Positions 409 through 9,757 of a DNA stretch of 64,000 nucleotides are shown here, one piece after another. The stretch is from Raineyella sp. W15-4 (lineage in GTDB: Bacteria; Actinomycetota; Actinomycetes; Propionibacteriales; Propionibacteriaceae). Location of the stretch: contig NZ_CP137079.1 in assembly GCF_033170155.1 (NCBI RefSeq), positions 1,054,001 through 1,118,000 on the forward strand, in the 5' to 3' direction. Within the stretch, counting starts at the first letter, position 1; each line of letters begins with the position of its first letter. A program made the position numbers and the translations under genes. Below the pieces are notes generated by a model. The model searched no databases, was not told where the DNA came from, and worked only from the letters and a program-made list of their open reading frames with translations.

Positions 409-2160
409 ATGATCTGCACAACATCCTCCGGATCCGCCGCCGTCGACGGCCGATCGCCGACCGGCGAGCGGCGGCGACCGCCGGCCGAGGCCGTCGTCGC
501 CAGGATCAGCCCGGCCCTCGACGCCGAGTACCGCACCGCGTCGCTGTGGAGCGACGCCAGCGTGTACGACCTGTGGCGAGCCTGCCTGGCATCGGCGCCC
601 GACCAGGACGTGGTCGTGGACTCCCGGGGCTTCCGAGCCAGCTACCGACAGGCGGACGACCGGGCCGCCCGGCTGGCGGGCTTCCTGCGATCGGTCGGGG
701 TCGGCCGGGGAGACGTCGTGTCCGTGGTGCTGCCGAACTGGGCCGAGTACCTCGTCGTGAACGTCGCCTGCCTGAAGCTCGGGGCGATCATCAACCCGAC
801 TCTCCCGCAGTACGGCTACCGCGAACTCCGTTACCTGCTCGATCAGAGCTGTGCGAAGGCCCTGGTCGTGGTGACCCGGTTCCGGTCGATCGACCATCGC
901 GAGGACGCCCGACGGCTCGCCGCGGCCGCTCCCTGGCTGCGGACCGTCCTGACGGTCGGCCCGAGGACGCCCGACGACCTCCCGTTCGCCACCCTGGACG
1001 AGGCCCTGGTCGGCGACCCACTCCCGGAGGCGGAGTGCACGCCGGGGAAAGGCAACGCCGTGGTCGCCGTGCTCTTCACCTCGGGGAGCGAGACACAACC
1101 GAAGGGGGTGATGCTGACCCACAACAACGTGCTGGCCAGCGAACGAGGGTTCGGCGAGGCCCTCGGGCTGCGCGTGGGGGAGCGGATGTTCATGCCGGCA
1201 CCGCTGGCGCACGCCACCGGGTACCTGCACGGGCTGACGATGCCGCTGATGTTCCGGGGAACCGTCATCCTGCTGGACAGGTTCCGGGGTCTCGACGCCC
1301 TGCGGCTGATCAACACCGAGCAGGCGACCTGCCTGATGGGTTCCACCACGATCGTCGATGACATCGTCGAGGCGGCCCGGGAGCGGGGAGGGTTCCACCC
1401 GGGCCTGCGGCGGATCTGCTGCGGTGGGGCGCCCGTCCCGGCCGGTCTGGTCGAACGGGCGCTGGACCTGGGCGTGCCGGTCCACGCCGTCTACGGGGCG
1501 ACCGAGAGCGCCCCGCACACCATGACCCGCCCCAGCGATCCTCTGGACCGGGTCATCCACTCCGACGGTCGCGCCGTTCCCGGAACACGGATCCGGATCG
1601 TGGACCACCAGACCCACGAAACGCTGCCGCCGGGAACCGAGGGCGAGGAGGCCTCGCGCGGTCCGGCCGTGTTCGTCGGCTACCTGCGCGACCCGGAGCG
1701 GACGGCCTCGGTGCTGGACGACGACGGGTGGTACTACTCGGGCGACCTCGCCGTGATGGACGCCGACGGATACATCCGGGTCACCGGCCGGATCAAGGAC
1801 ACCATCCTGCGCGGAGGAGAGAACATCTCGGCCCGCGAGGTCGAGGAGATCCTGCTGCAACACCCGGCCGTCCGGGACGTCGCCGTCGTCGCGATGCCGC
1901 ACCCGAGGCTGGGCGAGTCCGCCTGCGCGTTCGTGGTCCCACGGGCCGGGGCGGACCCGCTCACCCTGGACGGCGTCCGGGCCTTCTTCACGTTGATGGA
2001 GGTCGCGCGGTTCAAGACCCCCGAACGGGTGGAGAACGTCGATGCCCTGCCGATCACGCCCACCGGCAAGGTCTGCAAGGGCCTGCTGCGGGCCCGGATC
2101 GCCGCCCTCGTCGCGCAGGAAGCCGCCGCACGCGGCGACCGCCCTCAGGAGGAGCGATGA
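409..2160 (+). CDS. AMP-forming acyl/aryl acid:CoA ligase (CaiC/FadK-like)
   Basis: This 583-residue adenylate-forming enzyme activates a carboxylic acid to its acyl-CoA through an acyl-adenylate. Visible family motifs are the P-loop-like FTSGSETQPKGV (about residues 223-234), the VYGATES adenine-site motif, YSGDLAVMDADGYI with the following TGRIKD hinge, and PTGK with the catalytic lysine near the C-terminus. It heads a run of ETF genes, a membrane b-cytochrome-like gene and an acyl-CoA dehydrogenase, as CaiC or caffeyl-CoA synthetase do in carnitine or caffeate reduction systems. Substrate is unknown. The start at 409 has no strong ribosome site, so a start near codon 30 is possible. The next gene overlaps by 4 bp. 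Confidence 0.88.
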   Translation: MICTTSSGSAAVDGRSPTGERRRPPAEAVVARISPALDAEYRTASLWSDASVYDLWRACLASAPDQDVVVDSRGFRASYRQADDRAARLAGFLRSVGVGRGDVVSVVLPNWAEYLVVNVACLKLGAIINPTLPQYGYRELRYLLDQSCAKALVVVTRFRSIDHREDARRLAAAAPWLRTVLTVGPRTPDDLPFATLDEALVGDPLPEAECTPGKGNAVVAVLFTSGSETQPKGVMLTHNNVLASERGFGEALGLRVGERMFMPAPLAHATGYLHGLTMPLMFRGTVILLDRFRGLDALRLINTEQATCLMGSTTIVDDIVEAARERGGFHPGLRRICCGGAPVPAGLVERALDLGVPVHAVYGATESAPHTMTRPSDPLDRVIHSDGRAVPGTRIRIVDHQTHETLPPGTEGEEASRGPAVFVGYLRDPERTASVLDDDGWYYSGDLAVMDADGYIRVTGRIKDTILRGGENISAREVEEILLQHPAVRDVAVVAMPHPRLGESACAFVVPRAGADPLTLDGVRAFFTLMEVARFKTPERVENVDALPITPTGKVCKGLLRARIAALVAQEAAARGDRPQEER

Positions 2161-2924
2161 CCGTGGTCGTGGGCTATCTCTGGGTGGCGCCGCCGAAGGA
2201 GGCGACCGTCGAGGCGGACGGGACCGTGACCTGGCCGGGCGTGCACCGCGTCGTCGGGGACAGCGAGCGGGTGGCGATCGCCTTCGCGCGGGGTCTCGCG
2301 GAGGCGACGGAGGACCGCCTGGTCGGCGTGACCGTCGGGGACGCGCTCACCGCGGCTCCCCAGGCCGCGAGCGCGGGACTGGCCCGCGGCCTCGACGAGG
2401 CCCTGGTGGTCCGGACCACCGAGGCGCCGGGCACCGCGGAGGCAGCCGCGGCGATGGCCGCCGCCGTCCGGTCGATCGGGGATGCCTGGGCGGTGGTGAT
2501 CGGCAGCGCCGCCTCCGACTCCGGCACCCGGATGTTCGGGCCCTGCCTGGGCGGGGCACTGGCCTGGCCGGTGCTCGACGAGGTGATGGACGCCGGGTAC
2601 GACGGCTCAGCGCTCTGGGCGGTCAGTGAGGCCCATGGCGCCGCTCGCCGGTACCGCATCGACGTCCCGGCCGTCCTGGCGGTCTCGGTCGCGTCGCGGA
2701 CCCCGCGCCCGATGGGGTTGCAGGACATCCTGGCCGCGGCGCACAAGCCGTCGCGTACGGTCACGCCCGACGCACTGGGGGCCGCCCGGATCGGTCCCGT
2801 CACCGTGCGCGGCCGGGCCGGGATCGAGACCGGGAACCGCCAGGGCCGGGTGATCGACGGCGCCGACCCGGACCGGGCGGCCGCCGACCTCCTCGACGAG
2901 TTGGCGACCAGAGGAGTGCTGTGA
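2157..2924 (+). CDS. ETF beta / FixA-like subunit, divergent (pair 1)
   Basis: A 255-residue protein related to the electron-transfer-flavoprotein beta subunit. It has the alternating hydrophobic strands of the ETF nucleotide fold and a motif resembling FixA (FARGLAEATED...VTVGDAL), but is clearly more diverged than the second beta subunit downstream. The start overlaps the ligase stop as ATGA, preceded by AGGAGG. It is followed by its alpha partner in a TGATG junction, so the two are translationally coupled. Expected role is to carry electrons to or from an acyl-CoA dehydrogenase. Whether it binds AMP or a second FAD, as in bifurcating ETFs, cannot be decided by eye. Confidence 0.75.
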   Translation: MTVVVGYLWVAPPKEATVEADGTVTWPGVHRVVGDSERVAIAFARGLAEATEDRLVGVTVGDALTAAPQAASAGLARGLDEALVVRTTEAPGTAEAAAAMAAAVRSIGDAWAVVIGSAASDSGTRMFGPCLGGALAWPVLDEVMDAGYDGSALWAVSEAHGAARRYRIDVPAVLAVSVASRTPRPMGLQDILAAAHKPSRTVTPDALGAARIGPVTVRGRAGIETGNRQGRVIDGADPDRAAADLLDELATRGVL

Positions 2925-3877
2925 TGACTGGTGCCGTGATGACCGGAAGCTGGCTCGTGGTGGCCGAGGACGCTGCCCTGGGTGACCTGCTGGGCACGGC
3001 CCGCGGCCTCGGAGGGCCGGTGGCCGCCGCCGTGATCGGGTCGCGCGACCTGGCCCAGTACGTCGCGCCGAGGGCCGACCGGGTGGACTGGTTCCCCACC
3101 ACGCGGGACGTCCCGGCCGAGGCGTGGTCGTCCGCCGTCGCCGACCAGCTGGCCGGCGAGGGCGCGATCGTCACTCTGGCGGGCAATGATGCCGCTTCCC
3201 GCATCATCCTGGGCGCAGTGGCGGCCCGACTGCGGGCCCCGGTGCTCGCCCCGGTGCAGGACCTGCGGATCACCGAAGCCGGTGTCGAGGCGACCCGGTT
3301 GGTGTACGGCGGGATCGCCGTGGAACACGACGCGGTGGCGGGGCCGGTGTGCCTCGTCGTCGAGGGAGGCACCCGACGGGCACCGTACGCCGTGCATGAT
3401 CCTGTCGAGGTGCGACGCATCCAGGCGGACCCGCTGTTCGTCACCTGTCCGATCGACCCGGTGGCGCCGCACCTCGACCGGGACCTCGCCAGCGCCGACC
3501 GCGTCATCGGGGTGGGCCGCGGACTCGGCGACCCGGCCCGTCTCGCCGAGATCGAATGCCTCGCCGAGGCGCTCGGGGCGGAGATCGCCTGCAGCCGTCC
3601 CGTCGCGGAAGACCTCGGTTGGTTGCCGCGCGACCGGTATCTGGGGGTCTCCGGCCGCCGGATCGCCCCGAAGCTCTACCTGATGCTCGGCATCTCCGGT
3701 GAGATCCAGCACATGATCGGCGTCCGTGACGCCGGACTGATCGTTGCGGTCAACACCGACGCCCGGGCGCCCGTGGTGACCGGCGCCGACCTCACCGTCA
3801 TCGGAGACCTGCACGCCATCGTCCCTGCGCTGATCCGTCAGCTGACGTCGGCCGGAAGGAGGAGCGCTCATGCGTAG
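2924..3877 (+). CDS. ETF alpha / FixB-like subunit, divergent (pair 1)
   Basis: A 317-residue ETF alpha subunit. The C-terminal FAD domain is clear: GVGRGLGDP, the SRPVAEDLGW flavin motif, a VSGRRIAPKLY stretch where canonical ETFs have QVGQTG or QVGQSG, and GISGEIQH. The ATG at 2924 overlaps the preceding TGA and has GAGGAG 7 nt upstream; a GTG at 2921 is an alternative. The altered flavin motif sets it apart from the canonical alpha subunit encoded 0.8 kb downstream. It forms a dimer with the preceding gene product and overlaps the next gene by 8 bp. Two ETF pairs in one operon imply two electron routes or a complex with distinct flavin potentials (inference). Confidence 0.82.
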   Translation: MTGAVMTGSWLVVAEDAALGDLLGTARGLGGPVAAAVIGSRDLAQYVAPRADRVDWFPTTRDVPAEAWSSAVADQLAGEGAIVTLAGNDAASRIILGAVAARLRAPVLAPVQDLRITEAGVEATRLVYGGIAVEHDAVAGPVCLVVEGGTRRAPYAVHDPVEVRRIQADPLFVTCPIDPVAPHLDRDLASADRVIGVGRGLGDPARLAEIECLAEALGAEIACSRPVAEDLGWLPRDRYLGVSGRRIAPKLYLMLGISGEIQHMIGVRDAGLIVAVNTDARAPVVTGADLTVIGDLHAIVPALIRQLTSAGRRSAHA

Positions 3878-4634
3878 CGTCGTCCTGGTCAAGCAGGTCC
3901 CGGACAGCGATGCACCGCGGGGGCTCGACCCGCACGGCCGGCTGGTGCGCTCGGCCGGCAAGCAGGTGCTCGACGAGATCGGTGAACGCGCCCTGGAGGT
4001 GGTGCTCAGCCATCGCGACACGACCGGTGCGGTCGAGGTGGTGGCGATGACGATGGGACCTCCCGGCGCCCGCGACGCCGTACGATCGGCCCTCGCGATG
4101 GGCGCCGACCGGGGGGTCCACCTCTGCGACGACCGCCTCGCCGGCGCCGACCAGATCCGGACCGCACAGGCCCTGGCGGCGGCGCTGCGCATCGAGCAAC
4201 CGGACCTGATCGTGGCGGGGCAGGCGTCGAGCGACGGTGCGGGCGGGGTGCTCCCCGCGCTGCTCGCGCACCTGCTGGGGCTGCCGCTGCTGTCCGACCT
4301 GGCCTCCGTGCAGCTGACCGAGCACGAGGTCACCGGCACCCGTCTGGCCGATGCCGGGACCGTCCGCCTGCGCGTCGCGCTCCCGGCGATCGTCACCGTC
4401 ACCGACCAGCTGCCCGAGGGCCGGCTGCCGTCCCTGCGTGGCGTGCTCGGAGCCCGACGCAAGCACCTGGCGACGCGGAGCCTGGCGGAGCTGGGGATCG
4501 TCGATGCAGATCCGCGGACGGTCGTCCTCTCGGTGCAGCACCGTCCCGGGCGGGCGGCAGGGGTGAAGGTGACCGACGACGGCACCGCCGCCGGGACGCT
4601 GACGGCGTTCCTGGCCGAGCGCCGGCTGATCTGA
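3870..4634 (+). CDS. etfB: ETF beta subunit, canonical (pair 2)
   Basis: A 254-residue ETF beta subunit. It begins MRSVVLVKQVPDSD, the usual beta-subunit opening, and has the LAMGADRGVHL and AGQASSDGAGGVLPALLAHLLGLP blocks around the AMP-binding region. Start ATG at 3870 overlaps the preceding FixB-like gene and has an AAGGAGGAG ribosome site. With the following etfA it should form a soluble dimer that accepts electrons from the acyl-CoA dehydrogenase encoded at 6553. It is more conventional than pair 1, which argues that the two pairs are not recent duplicates. Confidence 0.9.
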   Translation: MRSVVLVKQVPDSDAPRGLDPHGRLVRSAGKQVLDEIGERALEVVLSHRDTTGAVEVVAMTMGPPGARDAVRSALAMGADRGVHLCDDRLAGADQIRTAQALAAALRIEQPDLIVAGQASSDGAGGVLPALLAHLLGLPLLSDLASVQLTEHEVTGTRLADAGTVRLRVALPAIVTVTDQLPEGRLPSLRGVLGARRKHLATRSLAELGIVDADPRTVVLSVQHRPGRAAGVKVTDDGTAAGTLTAFLAERRLI

Positions 4635-4646
4635 GGGGAGAGTTCC

Positions 4647-5627
4647 GTGGCAACCGCCTTCGCTTTCATCGAACTCGACGAGCGCGGCCAGGTGACCGCC
4701 GACGCCGCCGAGGTGGTCGCCGGCGCCACGCGTCTGGGGGAGCCGATCGCCGTGGTGGCCACCGACGGCGATCCCGCCCCGGTGCTGGCCCGGCTGGGCC
4801 AGGTGGGGGCCACCGACGTGGTCATCGCCCACCATCCGCTGGCGACACCGGCGACCGCGGTTCCTGCCGCGGCGGCCCTTCTGGCGGCCGCGGCCGACGC
4901 CGCCACTCCTCCCAGGGCCGTCGTCCTTCCGCACACCCGCTGCGGCCGTGAGGTCGCCGCCCACGTCGCGTTGGGGCTCGACGGCGGTCTGCTGACCGAC
5001 GTGGTCGACCTCGTCGGCGGCCCGGAGATCCGGACCACCCAGGCCGTGCTCGGCGGCGGCTGGACCACCGTCGCCGCGGTGCTGTCGGGCCCGGCGGTGA
5101 TCACCGTACGTCCGGGCTCGCTGCCCGAGGTGCTGCCCCCCGCGCAGCCCCGGGTCACCCGGGTGCGGATCGATCCCGACCCCCGACTCATCGAGGAGGT
5201 GCAGGGGGTCGCCCCGTACGCCGGGGTGACGTCGCGTCCCGCTCTGCGGTCGGCGTCCACCGTCGTCGCCGGAGGCCGGGGGATGGCGTCCGCCGGGGGG
5301 TTCTCGCTCGTCGAGCGGCTCGCCGACGAGCTGGGTGCTGCCGTGGGGGCGTCCCGAGCCGCCGTGGATGCCGGTCTCGCGCCCCGTTCCGCCCAGGTGG
5401 GTCAGTCCGGGACGACCGTCTCCCCGGACCTCTACCTTGCGCTGGGGATCTCGGGCGCGATGCAGCACCTGGCCGGGATGTCCGGGGCGGGGACCGTGGT
5501 GGCGGTCGACCTCGACCCGGCCGCCCCGATCTTCGACATCGCCGACTTCGGGGTGGTCGGTGATGTGACCACTGTGGTCCCGGCCCTGATCGAGGCGCTC
5601 CGCAGCCGCCGCGACGGTGCCCGATGA
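4647..5627 (+). CDS. etfA: ETF alpha subunit, canonical (pair 2)
   Basis: A 326-residue ETF alpha subunit starting at a GTG preceded by GGGGAG. The FAD domain near the C-terminus is textbook: ASRAAVDAGLAP, QVGQSGTTVSPDLY, GISGAMQHLAGM, and AAPIFDIADFGVVGD. Its stop overlaps the start of the membrane cytochrome-like gene by 4 bp (ATGA), so the two are translationally coupled. No FixC or ETF:quinone oxidoreductase is present in the operon, which makes the membrane protein the natural candidate electron partner (inference). Confidence 0.92.
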   Translation: MATAFAFIELDERGQVTADAAEVVAGATRLGEPIAVVATDGDPAPVLARLGQVGATDVVIAHHPLATPATAVPAAAALLAAAADAATPPRAVVLPHTRCGREVAAHVALGLDGGLLTDVVDLVGGPEIRTTQAVLGGGWTTVAAVLSGPAVITVRPGSLPEVLPPAQPRVTRVRIDPDPRLIEEVQGVAPYAGVTSRPALRSASTVVAGGRGMASAGGFSLVERLADELGAAVGASRAAVDAGLAPRSAQVGQSGTTVSPDLYLALGISGAMQHLAGMSGAGTVVAVDLDPAAPIFDIADFGVVGDVTTVVPALIEALRSRRDGAR

Positions 5628-6529
5628 CCGGCCTGACGATACGACGGGGCCGGCACGGCACGGTCCTCCGGGCCGTCACGCTGGCCTGCCTCGCCGCCGC
5701 GGTGCTGGTGCTCGCGGTGCTGTCGGCACGCTGGGCGTGGAGCCGGCCGGCGGTGGCGGCCTTCGTGGCGCGCTATCCCGGCGTGGCGACGGGGGCGTCG
5801 TACCCGGGGACTCCGGTCTGGGTCGCCGCCCTGCATGCCCTCAATGTGTTCTGCCTGGCACAGATCGTCCGGTCGGGCCTGGCGCTGCGCAGGATCGGGC
5901 GGCCCATCGGGCACTGGTCGCCGCCCACCCGTCGGCGGAGCGGGGAACCGGTCACGGTCGAGCAGTGGTTCCACGTCGCGCTCGATCTGCTGTGGCTGGT
6001 CGCCGGCGCGGTGTTCGTCGTGCTGATGGTCGTGAGCGGCCGGTGGGTGCGGCTGGTCCCGACGAGCTGGGACGTCTTCCCGAACGCGCTGTCGGCCGCG
6101 CTGCAGTATCTGTCGCTGCACTGGCCGCCCCACGACGGCTGGGTGGCCTACAACGCCCTGCAGATGCTGTGCTACTTCGGCGTGGTCTTCGTGCTGGCGC
6201 CGCTCGCGGCGGTCACCGGACTGCGGATGTCACTGCTGTGGCCGGCGCGGGCACCGATCAACCGGTGGTTCACCGTCGAACGCTCCAGGGTGGTGCACAC
6301 CGTGGTGATGGTCCTGTTCATCGTCTTCGCCGTCGTCCACATCGGGCTGGTGGCCGCCACCGGCGCCGTCCGGGCCCTCGACCACATGTTCGCCGCCCGC
6401 AACGACGACTCGCCGCTCGGCGTGCTCGTGCTGGCCGGCGTCCTCGTCCTCACCGCCGCGGCGATCGCGGCGGCGCGTCCCGCCATTCTGCGTGCCCTGG
6501 CCGGGCTCACCGGCCGGGTCACCCGTTAG
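5624..6529 (+). CDS. b-type-cytochrome-like integral membrane protein
   Basis: A 301-residue membrane protein with about five to six hydrophobic helices (roughly residues 17-34, 63-83, 115-137, 177-200, 223-246 and 264-284). Histidines sit inside or at the ends of helices: H71, H117, and H225 with H239 in one helix 14 residues apart. This spacing suits bis-histidine haem b ligation as in cytochrome b561, FdnI or HyaC-like quinone-reducing anchors. The family call is from these features, not from a close match. It lies between etfA (4 bp overlap) and the acyl-CoA dehydrogenase, suggesting it passes ETF electrons to or from the quinone pool. Haem binding is inferred. Confidence 0.6.
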   Translation: MTGLTIRRGRHGTVLRAVTLACLAAAVLVLAVLSARWAWSRPAVAAFVARYPGVATGASYPGTPVWVAALHALNVFCLAQIVRSGLALRRIGRPIGHWSPPTRRRSGEPVTVEQWFHVALDLLWLVAGAVFVVLMVVSGRWVRLVPTSWDVFPNALSAALQYLSLHWPPHDGWVAYNALQMLCYFGVVFVLAPLAAVTGLRMSLLWPARAPINRWFTVERSRVVHTVVMVLFIVFAVVHIGLVAATGAVRALDHMFAARNDDSPLGVLVLAGVLVLTAAAIAAARPAILRALAGLTGRVTR

Positions 6530-6552
6530 TCCGATCACCGGAGGTCGTCGCC

Positions 6553-7695
6553 ATGCCATTCTTCGAGCCGGAACAGGACGACTATCGCGAGATCGTCCGA
6601 GACTTCGTCGACCGCGAGGTGATGCCGCACTACGCCCGGTGGGAGGCCGCCGGTCAGGTCGATCCCGCGGTATGGCGGGCGGCCGCACAGCGCGGTCTGC
6701 TCGGCCTGGAGGTCGGCCCGGAGCACGGCGGGATGGGTCTGCGCGACTGGCGGTTCCGCCTGGTGGTGATCGAGGAGCTCGGATTCGCCGGCGCCGCGGC
6801 CCTCAACACGGGGTTCGCCGCCCACGACGACCTGGTGCTGCCCGCGATCCAGGGGCACGGCTCGGAGGAGTTGCGCCGGCGGTGGCTCCCGCGGATGGCG
6901 ACGGGGGCATCCATCGGGGCGATCGCGCTGACCGAGCCCGGTGCCGGCTCCGACCTGCGCGCGATCCGGACCAGAGCCGTCGCGGCCGGCGACGACTGGG
7001 TGCTCGACGGGCAGAAGGCCTTCGTGTCGAACGGGTCGCTCGCGGAGGTCCTGGTGGTCGCCGCCAGCACCGACGGCGGGAAGAGCCTCACGCTGTTCGC
7101 GCTGGACGGGGACACCCCCGGCATCGATCGCGGTCACCATCTCGACAAGCTCGGCCTGCGCGCCCAGGACACCGTCGAGGTGTTCCTCACCGACTGCCGG
7201 GTGCCGGCCGGGAACGTGCTGGGCGAGGTGGGCGACGGCCTGGCGATCCTGCGGCGCCTGCTGCCCCGGCAGCGGCTCGCCCAGGCCGCGATCAGTTGGG
7301 CGGAGGCGGCGGGTGCGCTGCGGTGGACCGAGAACCACGTCTTCGCTCGCCGGGCCTTCGGACAACGGATCGGGGACTTCCAGAACACCCGGTTCACCCT
7401 CGCCGAGATCGAGACCGGACTGGACGTGACCCGCAGCTACCTCGAACGCTGCGTGGACCGGCTCGACGACGGCACCCTCTCCCCGGTGGAGGCCGCGAAG
7501 GCCAAGTGGTGGGCCGGTGAGCAGGCCGTCGCGGCGGTGTCGGGACTGCTGCAGCTCTTCGGCGGCTACGGCTTCATGGAGGAGTACCCGATCGCGCGGG
7601 CCTTCCGCGACAGCCGGGTCCAGACCATCTACGCCGGTGCCACCGAGGTGATGAAGGATCTCATCGGGCGGGACATCGCCCGACGGCATCACTGA
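6553..7695 (+). CDS. Acyl-CoA dehydrogenase
   Basis: A 380-residue FAD-dependent acyl-CoA dehydrogenase of usual family length. The N-terminal helical domain is followed by the ALTEPGAGSDL flavin/acyl-binding motif (near residues 130-140) and QKAFVSNGS. The C-terminal helical domain carries the R-x-FGQ dimer motif (FGQRIGDFQ), LFGGYGFMEEYP, and the catalytic glutamate in AGATEVMK (E365). The ATG at 6553 follows a GGAGG about 9 nt upstream. It ends the ETF/cytochrome operon and overlaps the convergent hypA by 7 bp. It may oxidise an acyl-CoA or, like CaiA or caffeyl-CoA reductase, reduce an enoyl-CoA; the sequence alone does not say which. Confidence 0.92.
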   Translation: MPFFEPEQDDYREIVRDFVDREVMPHYARWEAAGQVDPAVWRAAAQRGLLGLEVGPEHGGMGLRDWRFRLVVIEELGFAGAAALNTGFAAHDDLVLPAIQGHGSEELRRRWLPRMATGASIGAIALTEPGAGSDLRAIRTRAVAAGDDWVLDGQKAFVSNGSLAEVLVVAASTDGGKSLTLFALDGDTPGIDRGHHLDKLGLRAQDTVEVFLTDCRVPAGNVLGEVGDGLAILRRLLPRQRLAQAAISWAEAAGALRWTENHVFARRAFGQRIGDFQNTRFTLAEIETGLDVTRSYLERCVDRLDDGTLSPVEAAKAKWWAGEQAVAAVSGLLQLFGGYGFMEEYPIARAFRDSRVQTIYAGATEVMKDLIGRDIARRHH

Positions 7696-8135
7696 GGCCC
7701 CGGATCCCTGCCCGCCCCCGCTCTCTCGGCTTCGTCCCCGGCCGCTCTCTCGGCTTCGCCGTCGGTCGTCACGGCGTCCGTCGTTCCGGGAAGGTCGAGA
7801 TCGGCCCAGGTCACCTCGAACTCCCGTCCGTGGGTCAGGGTGCCGGTCGGTGTGCCGCACACCGGGCAGGTCAGTGCGAAGAACTCGTCGATCGGCTGGT
7901 CGCTCCCGCACGCGGGGCACCACACCGTCGCCGGCACCACCTCCAGCTCCAACCGTGCCCCTGCCACGGCGGTGCCGGCCACCGCGATCGGCCAGGCCCC
8001 GACCAAGGCCTCGGGAGTGACACCGCTGAGCGTCCCGACCCGCAGCCCCACCGCCTGCACCCCGGCGGCGCCGGCCCGGGCGGCGGCGGTGTCGACCGCC
8101 TCGGCCACTGAACGGAGCAGTCCCAGTTCGTGCAC
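7689..8135 (-). CDS. hypA: HypA, hydrogenase nickel metallochaperone
   Basis: A 148-residue protein (GTG start) beginning MHELGL, where His2 and Glu3 form the nickel site of HypA. Two zinc-knuckle pairs follow, CPACG (C73, C76) and CPVCG (C90, C93). The last 35 residues are an acidic, disordered extension beyond the usual length of about 115. HypA delivers nickel to [NiFe]-hydrogenase large subunits, and the divergently oriented hydrogenase-like gene starts only 37 bp away. HypB, the GTPase that normally works with it, is not in the window. Its 3' end overlaps the acyl-CoA dehydrogenase tail by 7 bp. Confidence 0.88.
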   Translation of the reverse strand: MHELGLLRSVAEAVDTAAARAGAAGVQAVGLRVGTLSGVTPEALVGAWPIAVAGTAVAGARLELEVVPATVWCPACGSDQPIDEFFALTCPVCGTPTGTLTHGREFEVTWADLDLPGTTDAVTTDGEAERAAGDEAERAGAGRDPGPQ

Positions 8136-8172: not shown

Positions 8173-9513
8173 ATGGTGCAGCGGTGGGTGCTCGACGAGA
8201 TCATCGACCCGTTCGGGGCGAAGGTCGTGGTGGACCGTGCCCCCGACGGGACCATACGGGAGGCGAGGTTCGACCTTGCCGGGCTGCCCCGGGTCGACGC
8301 GCTGCTCACCGGCCATCCGGTCGCCGAGGTGCCGTCCCTGGTCGAACGGCTGTGCGGAGTCTGCCCCGCGGCGCACCACCTGGCCGGGATCCGGGCCCTG
8401 GAGTCCCTGTCCGGTGGGGTCGCTCTCCCCACCGCCGCCGACCTCTCCCGCCGGCTGCTGCACCACGCCTCTGCGATCGCCACCCACGCCGTCCGGGCCG
8501 TCACCACCAGCCGCGACGACGCGGTGACCCTGCGGCGGTTCGCCAAGGAGGTGACGGTGGCGGTGGGATCACCCGGCCACTTCCCGGTCACCGCAGTGCC
8601 GGGCGGTGTCGCCGTACCGGTCGACGCCGAGGCACGCGACCGCTGTCTCACTCTGGTGCCCGCCGCGCTGGCCGCCGCCGTCCGGATCGCGGAGCGTACG
8701 CTGCCCGTCCCCGGCCCGGTCGACGCCTTCACCGGCGCGGACGTCGCGCTGATCGACGAGAAGGGCCGGCCGGACCTGTTCGGCACCCGGCTGCGGGCGG
8801 TGGCCGCCGACGGTCGCGTGGTCATCGACGCAGCCGTGGCAGCGGAGTGGGACAGGCTGGTCGCCGAGTCGGTGCCCGGCGATCCCGCCCCCCGGCCCTA
8901 CCTGCTGGCTCTGGGCCCGGAGCACGGCCGGTACCGGGTCGGGCCGGTCGCGCAGTTGCGTATCGGCGGGCTCGGCACCCCGCAGGCCGCCGCGCTGCAG
9001 GCCGACTGGTCACGTCGGGGCGGGCACGCGGCCGCCGCCCGTACGGTCGTCACCGTCCACTCGGTGGAGGCGATCGCCGCGCTGCTGGCCCGCCCGGAAC
9101 TGCTCGATCGACGGGTCCGCATCGACCCGCCGGACCGGACCGGCCCGGGTGTCGGCATCGGCTGGGTGGACGGGCCCCGTGGTCTGCTGGTGCACCGCTA
9201 CCAGGTGGCCGCCGACGGCCGGGTCAGTTCGGCCACCGTACTGACCCCCACGGCACAGAACGAGTACTGGCTGGCCCAGTTGCTGCGCCGCGCGATCGAC
9301 ACCGGTCACGACCCGGGTCATCCGGCCGGCGAATCCGGCCGGGGGCAGACCGGCCCGATCGTCGAGCTGGAGGACGCCATCCGTGAGGCCGACCCGTGTC
9401 TGCCCTGCTCCTCGGCGCCCGTCGGTGCGATGGGTCTGGTGGTCGAGGAAACAGTGCCCGATGCACCGTACGACCCGCCGGACCAGGTACCCGACCCCTC
9501 AGGAGGGCAGTAG
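8173..9513 (+). CDS. [NiFe]-hydrogenase-like large subunit, divergent
   Basis: A 446-residue protein (ATG at 8173 behind AGGTCGGAGG) resembling group 3 (HoxH-like) large subunits. The L1 motif RLCGVCPAAHH gives C61 and C64, and the C-terminal DPCLPC gives C409 and C412, so all four NiFe-ligand cysteines are kept. Three features depart from known enzymes. The N-terminal Glu-Gly-His proton-gate motif is replaced by Pro-Phe-Gly (residues 13-15). The His or Arg expected three residues after the last cysteine is Ala415. A 34-residue proline-rich tail follows with no visible protease site. No small subunit gene is nearby. Flanked by hypA and hypC. It may be an active noncanonical enzyme or a repurposed NiFe protein. 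Confidence 0.75.
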   Translation: MVQRWVLDEIIDPFGAKVVVDRAPDGTIREARFDLAGLPRVDALLTGHPVAEVPSLVERLCGVCPAAHHLAGIRALESLSGGVALPTAADLSRRLLHHASAIATHAVRAVTTSRDDAVTLRRFAKEVTVAVGSPGHFPVTAVPGGVAVPVDAEARDRCLTLVPAALAAAVRIAERTLPVPGPVDAFTGADVALIDEKGRPDLFGTRLRAVAADGRVVIDAAVAAEWDRLVAESVPGDPAPRPYLLALGPEHGRYRVGPVAQLRIGGLGTPQAAALQADWSRRGGHAAAARTVVTVHSVEAIAALLARPELLDRRVRIDPPDRTGPGVGIGWVDGPRGLLVHRYQVAADGRVSSATVLTPTAQNEYWLAQLLRRAIDTGHDPGHPAGESGRGQTGPIVELEDAIREADPCLPCSSAPVGAMGLVVEETVPDAPYDPPDQVPDPSGGQ

Positions 9514-9514
9514 C

Positions 9515-9757
9515 GTGTGTGTCTCCGTACCGTCCAGAATCGTCCGGATCACCCCTGGCGTGCTGCCGATGGGTGACGTCCGGGTCGGTGACCGGGAGGT
9601 GTCCTGCTGCCTGGCGTACGTTCCCGAGGCGCAGGTCGGCGACTTCGTCCTGGTGCAGAACGGCTTCGCCATCGATCTGCTGGATCCGGAGTCGGCCGCC
9701 CTGTCGCTGAGCGCGTTCGCCGAGCTGGGCGTGCTGGACGCCCCGGAGGACCTCTGA
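9515..9757 (+). CDS. hypC: HypC/HybG-type hydrogenase maturation chaperone
   Basis: An 80-residue protein starting at GTG 9515, which gives (M)CVSVPSRIV, keeping the essential Cys2 that carries the Fe(CN)2CO precursor with HypD. The start follows AGGAGGGCAG and sits one base after the large-subunit stop, so the pair is co-translated. The OB-fold core GDFVLVQNGFAID aligns with the usual VLVHxGFA block, but the conserved histidine is Gln48. HypD, HypE and HypF are not in the window and must come from elsewhere if iron-cyanide chemistry is used. The change parallels the altered residues in the neighbouring large subunit. Confidence 0.82.
   Translation: MCVSVPSRIVRITPGVLPMGDVRVGDREVSCCLAYVPEAQVGDFVLVQNGFAIDLLDPESAALSLSAFAELGVLDAPEDL

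Follow-up and report, generated by a model that had tools for sequence, protein, structure and literature searches.

A [NiFe]-hydrogenase large-subunit homologue of likely group-3 descent that lacks the catalytic signature: a probable assembly scaffold for a neighbouring uptake hydrogenase

Introduction

HoxV of Cupriavidus necator and HupK of Rhizobium leguminosarum are homologues of [NiFe]-hydrogenase large subunits that are encoded in uptake-hydrogenase clusters (PMC12134894, PMC3534401). According to a 2025 review, both resemble large subunits, contain Fe(CN)2CO without Ni, and have been reported to bind to the apo-large subunit or to HypC, with HoxV binding apo-HoxG as an intermediate scaffold (PMC12134894). 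The review treats the role of HoxV-type proteins as not settled and describes ancillary proteins of this kind from Pseudomonadota. No description of an actinobacterial protein of this type turned up in a literature search that covered few subscription journals.

The window analyzed here, a stretch of 64,000 nucleotides from Raineyella sp. W15-4 (NCBI RefSeq assembly GCF_033170155.1, contig NZ_CP137079.1, positions 1,054,001 to 1,118,000), encodes a large-subunit homologue that is referred to as NLSU. A sequence-only reading had placed this protein outside the standard hydrogenase groups and had suggested that it catalyzes a different reaction, serves as a nickel-iron electron-transfer protein, or binds nickel. 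The observations presented below make it likely that NLSU is a dedicated assembly factor or cofactor scaffold for a neighbouring group-1-type uptake hydrogenase, working like HoxV and HupK.

Results

The NLSU gene and its two closest neighbours are listed in Table 1. The translation of its open reading frame contains all four cysteines that had been claimed as ligands, and PFG at the EGH site as well as Ala three residues past the last cysteine are likewise as described beforehand. The Pfam model NiFeSe_Hases (PF00374) matches NLSU at 2.9e-10, the NCBIfam model VhuA matches at 8e-30, which is far below the cut-off of that model, and the best PDB match is 5xf9, an NAD-reducing hydrogenase (3e-39). 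An AlphaFold2 model based on a four-sequence alignment was poor (mean pLDDT 55.1, pTM 0.56), and the Foldseek matches of this model, with 5xf9 again in first place at a TM of about 0.5, repeat the sequence result.

Table 1. Features of the NLSU locus in window coordinates
Feature	Position	Strand	Evidence
NLSU, 446 aa, [NiFe]-hydrogenase large-subunit homologue derived from group 3, catalytic signature lacking	8173..9513	+	
PFG at EGH site, residues 13-15	8209..8217	+	alignment
N-terminal CxxC, C61 and C64	8353..8364	+	28/28 rows
C-terminal CxxC, C409 and C412	9397..9408	+	C409 32/32, C412 30/32
Ala415 replacing cleavage-site His/Arg, three residues after C412	9415..9417	+	31/32 rows
C-terminal peptide kept (PxGxMGLxV core), with Pro-rich extension	9418..9510	+	
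HypC2, second chaperone of the HypC family, with Cys2 but with Gln in place of His51	9515..9757	+	Pfam HupF_HypC, 2.7e-18
HypA2, second nickel chaperone of HypA type, encoded divergently to NLSU	7689..8135	-	Pfam HypA, 5.7e-27; synteny

The Pro-rich tail had been thought to replace the peptide that is usually cleaved off. The extension does exist, but the peptide itself has been kept, with SSA-PVGAMGLVVEE of NLSU aligning with ATH-ALGQMPLVVSV of group-3d subunits. Past the peptide motif, the tail measures 5-17 residues in most complete NLSU rows, and long tails occur besides the window copy only in L020 from G003 (48 residues) and in L100 (46 residues; the figure for L099 results from a pattern error and was disregarded), which rules out the Pro-rich tail as a trait of the family.

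In catalytic large subunits, the cysteines serve as terminal or bridging ligands and the Glu of the EGH motif has a catalytic role. Conservation of these and other residues was assessed on 33 NLSU rows including fragments, with gapped rows left uncounted at the respective position and the split copy of G001 excluded. Loss of cysteines in orthologues, which the sequence-only reading had named as a possible objection, was restricted to C412 (Ile in L082, Phe in L095), and the single exception at Ala415 is a Gln. The Glu of the EGH motif is present in none of 28 rows. T358-P359-T360, Q362-N363, and Asp407 are kept in 32/32 rows and Arg336 in all 30 rows with a letter at this position. A segment measured from landmark to landmark, which presumably lines the active site, comprises 15 residues in 19/19 complete NLSU rows, compared to 42 in six group-3d-like and 35 in nine group-3b rows, so that 20-27 residues are missing from NLSU. 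None of the compared reference rows of groups 1-4 has the changes found in NLSU, in line with the proposed position outside the standard enzyme groups.

The dN/dS values of NLSU lie between 0.08 and 0.37 for seven pairs, three of which have a dS above 1 (saturation), and NLSU evolves faster than HupL. The near-fixed residues together with the low dN/dS indicate purifying selection and let the departures of NLSU appear as fixed features of a constrained gene. A decaying pseudogene that hitch-hikes in the cluster could account for the faster evolution and for the copy of G001, where NLSU is found in two frames; with the near-invariant motifs and the low dN/dS, this explanation is refuted for the family as a whole and retains next to no probability. 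In G001, hypF is also split into two pieces and hypE into three overlapping pieces, and the loci concerned (L022 and L023, in a genome of one contig) thus contain each of the three genes in more than one frame. Since hypF and hypE are broken as well, assembly indels are suggested as the cause of the NLSU split.

The descent of NLSU was analyzed in a tree of 53 rows (14 of 67 rows were excluded beforehand and L125 contributed no row), the reference set being one without MvhA/FrhA (F420/Mvh-type). Fifteen NLSU rows form one group (100/100) inside group 3 (98/95), and seven HupK/HoxV rows form a separate group (100/100). Forcing NLSU and HupK into one clade gave a tree 46 log units worse (p-AU 0.0015). 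Long-branch warnings were issued for HycE and some HupK rows. NLSU might hence be a true HupK/HoxV orthologue that long branches have misplaced, as the context follows the same logic with a HypC paralogue and a HypA neighbour; given the placement of both groups, the rejection of a single clade and the differing cysteine pattern, we regard this as improbable. A derivation of NLSU from a group-3 large subunit, separate from that of HupK/HoxV, is likely, and not certain because of the long HupK and HycE branches and the missing F420/Mvh-type references.

The window genome consists of one contig of 3.96 Mb and contains one other PF00374 gene, which encodes a full-length large subunit (1041.7-1043.3 kb). 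Together with the small-subunit gene, it forms hupSL of a group-1-type uptake hydrogenase at 1040.1-1043.3 kb, and as the window starts at 1054.0 kb, NLSU is located about 19 kb downstream. The genes around this large subunit code for the small subunit, cytochrome b, a maturation protease, HypB, HypC1, HypD, HypF, and a second HypA; an AIRS-domain protein in the cluster was taken for HypE. Synteny was examined in 33 loci (L018, L020, L022, and L082-L111) by tblastn with the genes of the window cluster as queries. As far as the contigs permit, the usual order is hupS-hupL-cytB-hycI, hypA2 on the opposite strand and NLSU-hypC2, with hyp genes around. The order hycI-hypA2-NLSU was found in 21 of the 24 loci that have both hycI and NLSU (not in L083, L096, and L097). 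In 25/25 cases the neighbouring HupL retains all three EGH residues together with four Cys and the terminal His, and the small-subunit motif is the ordinary ECTGC (25/25). Two loci, L095 (of whose 34 kb contig 15 kb were read) and L105 (on a contig of 4.6 kb), have NLSU-hypC2 amid hyp genes with no hupSL in the stretch covered; the copy in the former (L095:5481-6752, from G504) is the one with Phe in place of the fourth Cys.

In the window genome, acyl-CoA, ETF, and cytochrome genes are located between hycI and hypA2. A tie of NLSU to these upstream genes was rejected: since hypA2 is the only marked gene between hycI and NLSU in the 21 loci mentioned, the acyl-CoA/ETF block lies outside the conserved unit. 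The block itself (window 409-7695 and genome C1:1045110-1054401, L003/L004) contains genes for a LysR-family regulator, enoyl-CoA hydratase, an Oxidored_FMN/pyridine-nucleotide oxidoreductase, two acyl-CoA dehydrogenases, a NUDIX-like protein, class III CoA-transferase, an MFS protein, acyl-CoA ligase, two EtfBA pairs, and a Ni_hydr_CYTB-type cytochrome b. It resembles a carnitine-type or enoyl-CoA-reducing module, and H2 might be used to reduce unsaturated acyl-CoA.

The two genes flanking NLSU bear on the question of its cargo. Directly after NLSU, hypC2 was found in 30/33 loci, the exceptions being L097, in which hypC2 lies on the far side of hypA2, L110, where the contig ends, and L111, where a HupS-like match intervenes, and among the 26 loci in which marked genes precede NLSU, hypA2 is the divergent neighbour in 22. 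The latter could be explained by NLSU being a store or delivery platform for nickel, not iron, that cooperates with HypA2 and, for example, presents Ni to HupL. HypA2 stays beside NLSU even in L097, where hypC2 has moved away, the four thiolates are kept, and HypA is described to dock on the immature large subunit in the case of HyhL-HypA (PMC12134894). Against this stand the constancy of hypC2, whose family comprises chaperones of Fe(CN)2CO, its position after NLSU also in L095 and L105, which show no divergent hypA2, and in L083, which gave no hypA2 match, and the fixed change that HypC2 carries itself. A nickel platform is therefore considered unlikely, and it keeps a small share of probability because hypA2 accompanies NLSU nearly as regularly as hypC2 does. 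The nickel-binding protein of the sequence-only reading came nearest of its three suggestions, although Fe(CN)2CO appears to be the likelier cargo; that NLSU binds metal at all is likely.

The change in HypC2 became evident from an alignment of 30 rows, from the window and the 29 loci whose HypC reading frame passed the filter. At the position of E. coli His51, 28 rows have Gln, one Ala, and one Asn (His in 0/30), and Cys2 is kept in 30/30, whereas HypC1 keeps both Cys and His in 10/10 rows. In E. coli HypC, exchanging C2 or H51 is reported to eliminate both the activity and the cofactor content (PMC12134894). The retention of Cys2 and the loss of His51, seen together with these exchanges, suggest that HypC2 is specialized for transfer and not for building on HypD.

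In a first survey, NLSU was matched in 5 of 57 genomes, two of them weakly. Within the genus, NLSU is carried by G001 and G003, and no match was obtained for G002 in the first survey, the family profile search, or the HupL search. A further contig search gave three NLSU loci, two from Propionibacteriaceae MAGs and one from Corynebacterium sp. 74A. With a profile built from five copies, NLSU was found in 31 of 198 family genomes representing 6 of 29 genera; G544 showed an additional weaker match to this profile. Class-wide, 18 of 394 genomes were matched at 1e-20, 17 of them besides an NLSU carrier. The 18 matches in these 17 genomes were rejected as NLSU copies beyond the family, because the cleavage-site residue is His in every one of them, with EGH or EGE displayed in 14; weaker copies, or copies in genomes outside the sample, may exist. 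No match was found in the phage records searched, and 17 plasmid records matched, the best of which are annotated as HoxH or Ni/Fe hydrogenase subunit alpha.

Within the 198 family genomes, which are related so that the counts are not independent events, 31 carry NLSU, 30 a close HupL (66-100% identical), and 27 both; a 31st HupL match, in G589, is only 33% identical. All 15 carriers with a completeness of 90% or more and a contamination of 5% or less have both genes and none has one alone. NLSU without HupL is restricted to four drafts of 76-88% completeness (G504, G563, G599, and G602) and HupL without NLSU to three genomes of 59-89% (G568, G573, and G580). The small draft G585, with 7% contamination, contains two copies of the cluster of hydrogenase and NLSU (L091 and L092).

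A small subunit belonging to NLSU was found neither in the window genome searched with PF01058 nor in the neighbourhoods screened with the window-cluster queries. At E <= 0.001, PF01058 matched three genes of the window genome: a NuoB-like gene, hupS, and another NuoB-like gene at 668 kb. The last one was rejected as partner because NLSU-carrying genomes such as G556, G557, and G575 have one match and many genomes free of NLSU have two. At that site (L008:8229-9621), NuoB-like, NuoC-like (Complex1_30kDa), and ferredoxin-like genes stand beside 2-oxoacid:ferredoxin oxidoreductase, and second NuoB-like matches are common across the family regardless of NLSU.

These results also concern a possible catalytic or sensing role, with a different reaction, for NLSU as a [NiFe] subunit whose small subunit is encoded elsewhere or is HupS. 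The four ligands in most copies and the constancy of Arg336 and Asp407 would fit such a role, and some H2 sensors are described as uncleaved (PMC12134894). Nevertheless, the EGH Glu and the 20-27 residue segment are absent, the NuoB-like gene at 668 kb is not tied to NLSU, and the window-cluster genes used to screen the conserved block revealed no partner, one outside the query genes being conceivable in some loci; altogether, there is little probability left for this explanation. The different reaction and the nickel-iron electron-transfer role that had been suggested gained no support, as a small subunit belonging to NLSU was not detected and NLSU accompanies another hydrogenase in 27/31 family genomes, inside the maturation genes of the latter.

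Discussion

The NLSU system is conserved, syntenic, and co-occurs with one hydrogenase, and its HypC proteins are split into HypC1 and HypC2. A dedicated assembly factor could have arisen when a group-3 large subunit lost its small-subunit partner, the catalytic Glu, the segment of 20-27 residues, and the cleavage site, and kept the ligand cysteines. During hydrogenase assembly, NLSU would probably hold the Fe (or NiFe) group. Fe(CN)2CO would be built by HypC1-HypD, a step established in other bacteria, then be parked on NLSU, whichever metal or metals it holds, and presumably thereafter be passed to apo-HupL by HypC2, with HypA2 serving nickel. As Ala415 should not be cut, NLSU would stay open and precursor-like. 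In immature large subunits, the uncleaved C-terminal peptide is described to help to keep the pocket open (PMC12134894), and by analogy the peptide of NLSU should do the same. Several observations count against an assembly scaffold: NLSU has four cysteines and thus more than HoxV, R. leguminosarum HupF keeps the His that HypC2 has lost, some draft genomes contain only NLSU or only HupL, L095 and L105 are without hupSL in the stretch covered, and the kept peptide need not bar nickel, since a peptide-mutated soluble hydrogenase of R. eutropha held it (cited in PMC12134894).

Because all four ligands and a presumably uncleavable peptide are kept, NLSU may even build and carry the whole NiFe(CN)2CO. 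That actinobacteria made a scaffold from a group-3 subunit independently of the proteobacterial HupK/HoxV, and one that may carry the complete cofactor to another hydrogenase, is a rather doubtful extension of the assembly role; if true, whole-cofactor hand-over would be a step absent from the scheme in which iron comes first and then nickel. In any case, a second and probably separate scaffold lineage with a different cysteine set asks which features a scaffold needs, and this lineage comes with an extra HypC without the iron-binding His and with near-strict co-occurrence with one hydrogenase. Since the ordinary motif ECTGC is present in the small subunit, the O2-protection rationale of HupK need not apply, and the question extends to organisms with an ordinary, not O2-tolerant, proximal-cluster motif.

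Among the described systems, the large subunits of group 3 (HoxH/MvhA-like) are nearest to NLSU by sequence and in the tree and share with it four Cys in two CxxC pairs as well as the peptide core at the C-terminus. Unlike catalytic members, NLSU has neither the N-terminal Glu of EGH/EGE nor the cleavage-site His/Arg, and no cognate small-subunit gene was found beside it; because these three defining features are missing, NLSU is not classed as a hydrogenase. It is not placed in the HupK/HoxV family either, as both common descent with HoxV/HupK apart from the catalytic subunits (with the long-branch caveat of the tree) and the cysteine pattern differ. HupK and HoxV have a reduced set of ligand cysteines: an aromatic residue replaces the first Cys of the N-terminal pair in 5/7 rows (LF/LY/VF-x-LC, with no such motif in the other two), the C-terminal pair is down to one Cys in 6/7 rows, and HoxV keeps the second Cys of the N-terminal pair by alignment register, whereas most NLSU copies keep all four. 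Moreover, pHG1 has HoxQ- and HybE-type genes, neither of which was matched in L003 or L020. Of the HypC paralogues, HoxL, with a role as proposed here for HypC2, also lacks His51 (Phe), and HupF keeps the His and is described with a C-terminal extension (PMC3534401), compared to 80 aa for HypC2 of the window. What NLSU shares with HupK and HoxV is the context: a large-subunit homologue with no dedicated small subunit detected, encoded in the cluster of an uptake hydrogenase, adjoining hypA, and accompanied by an extra HypC-family gene.
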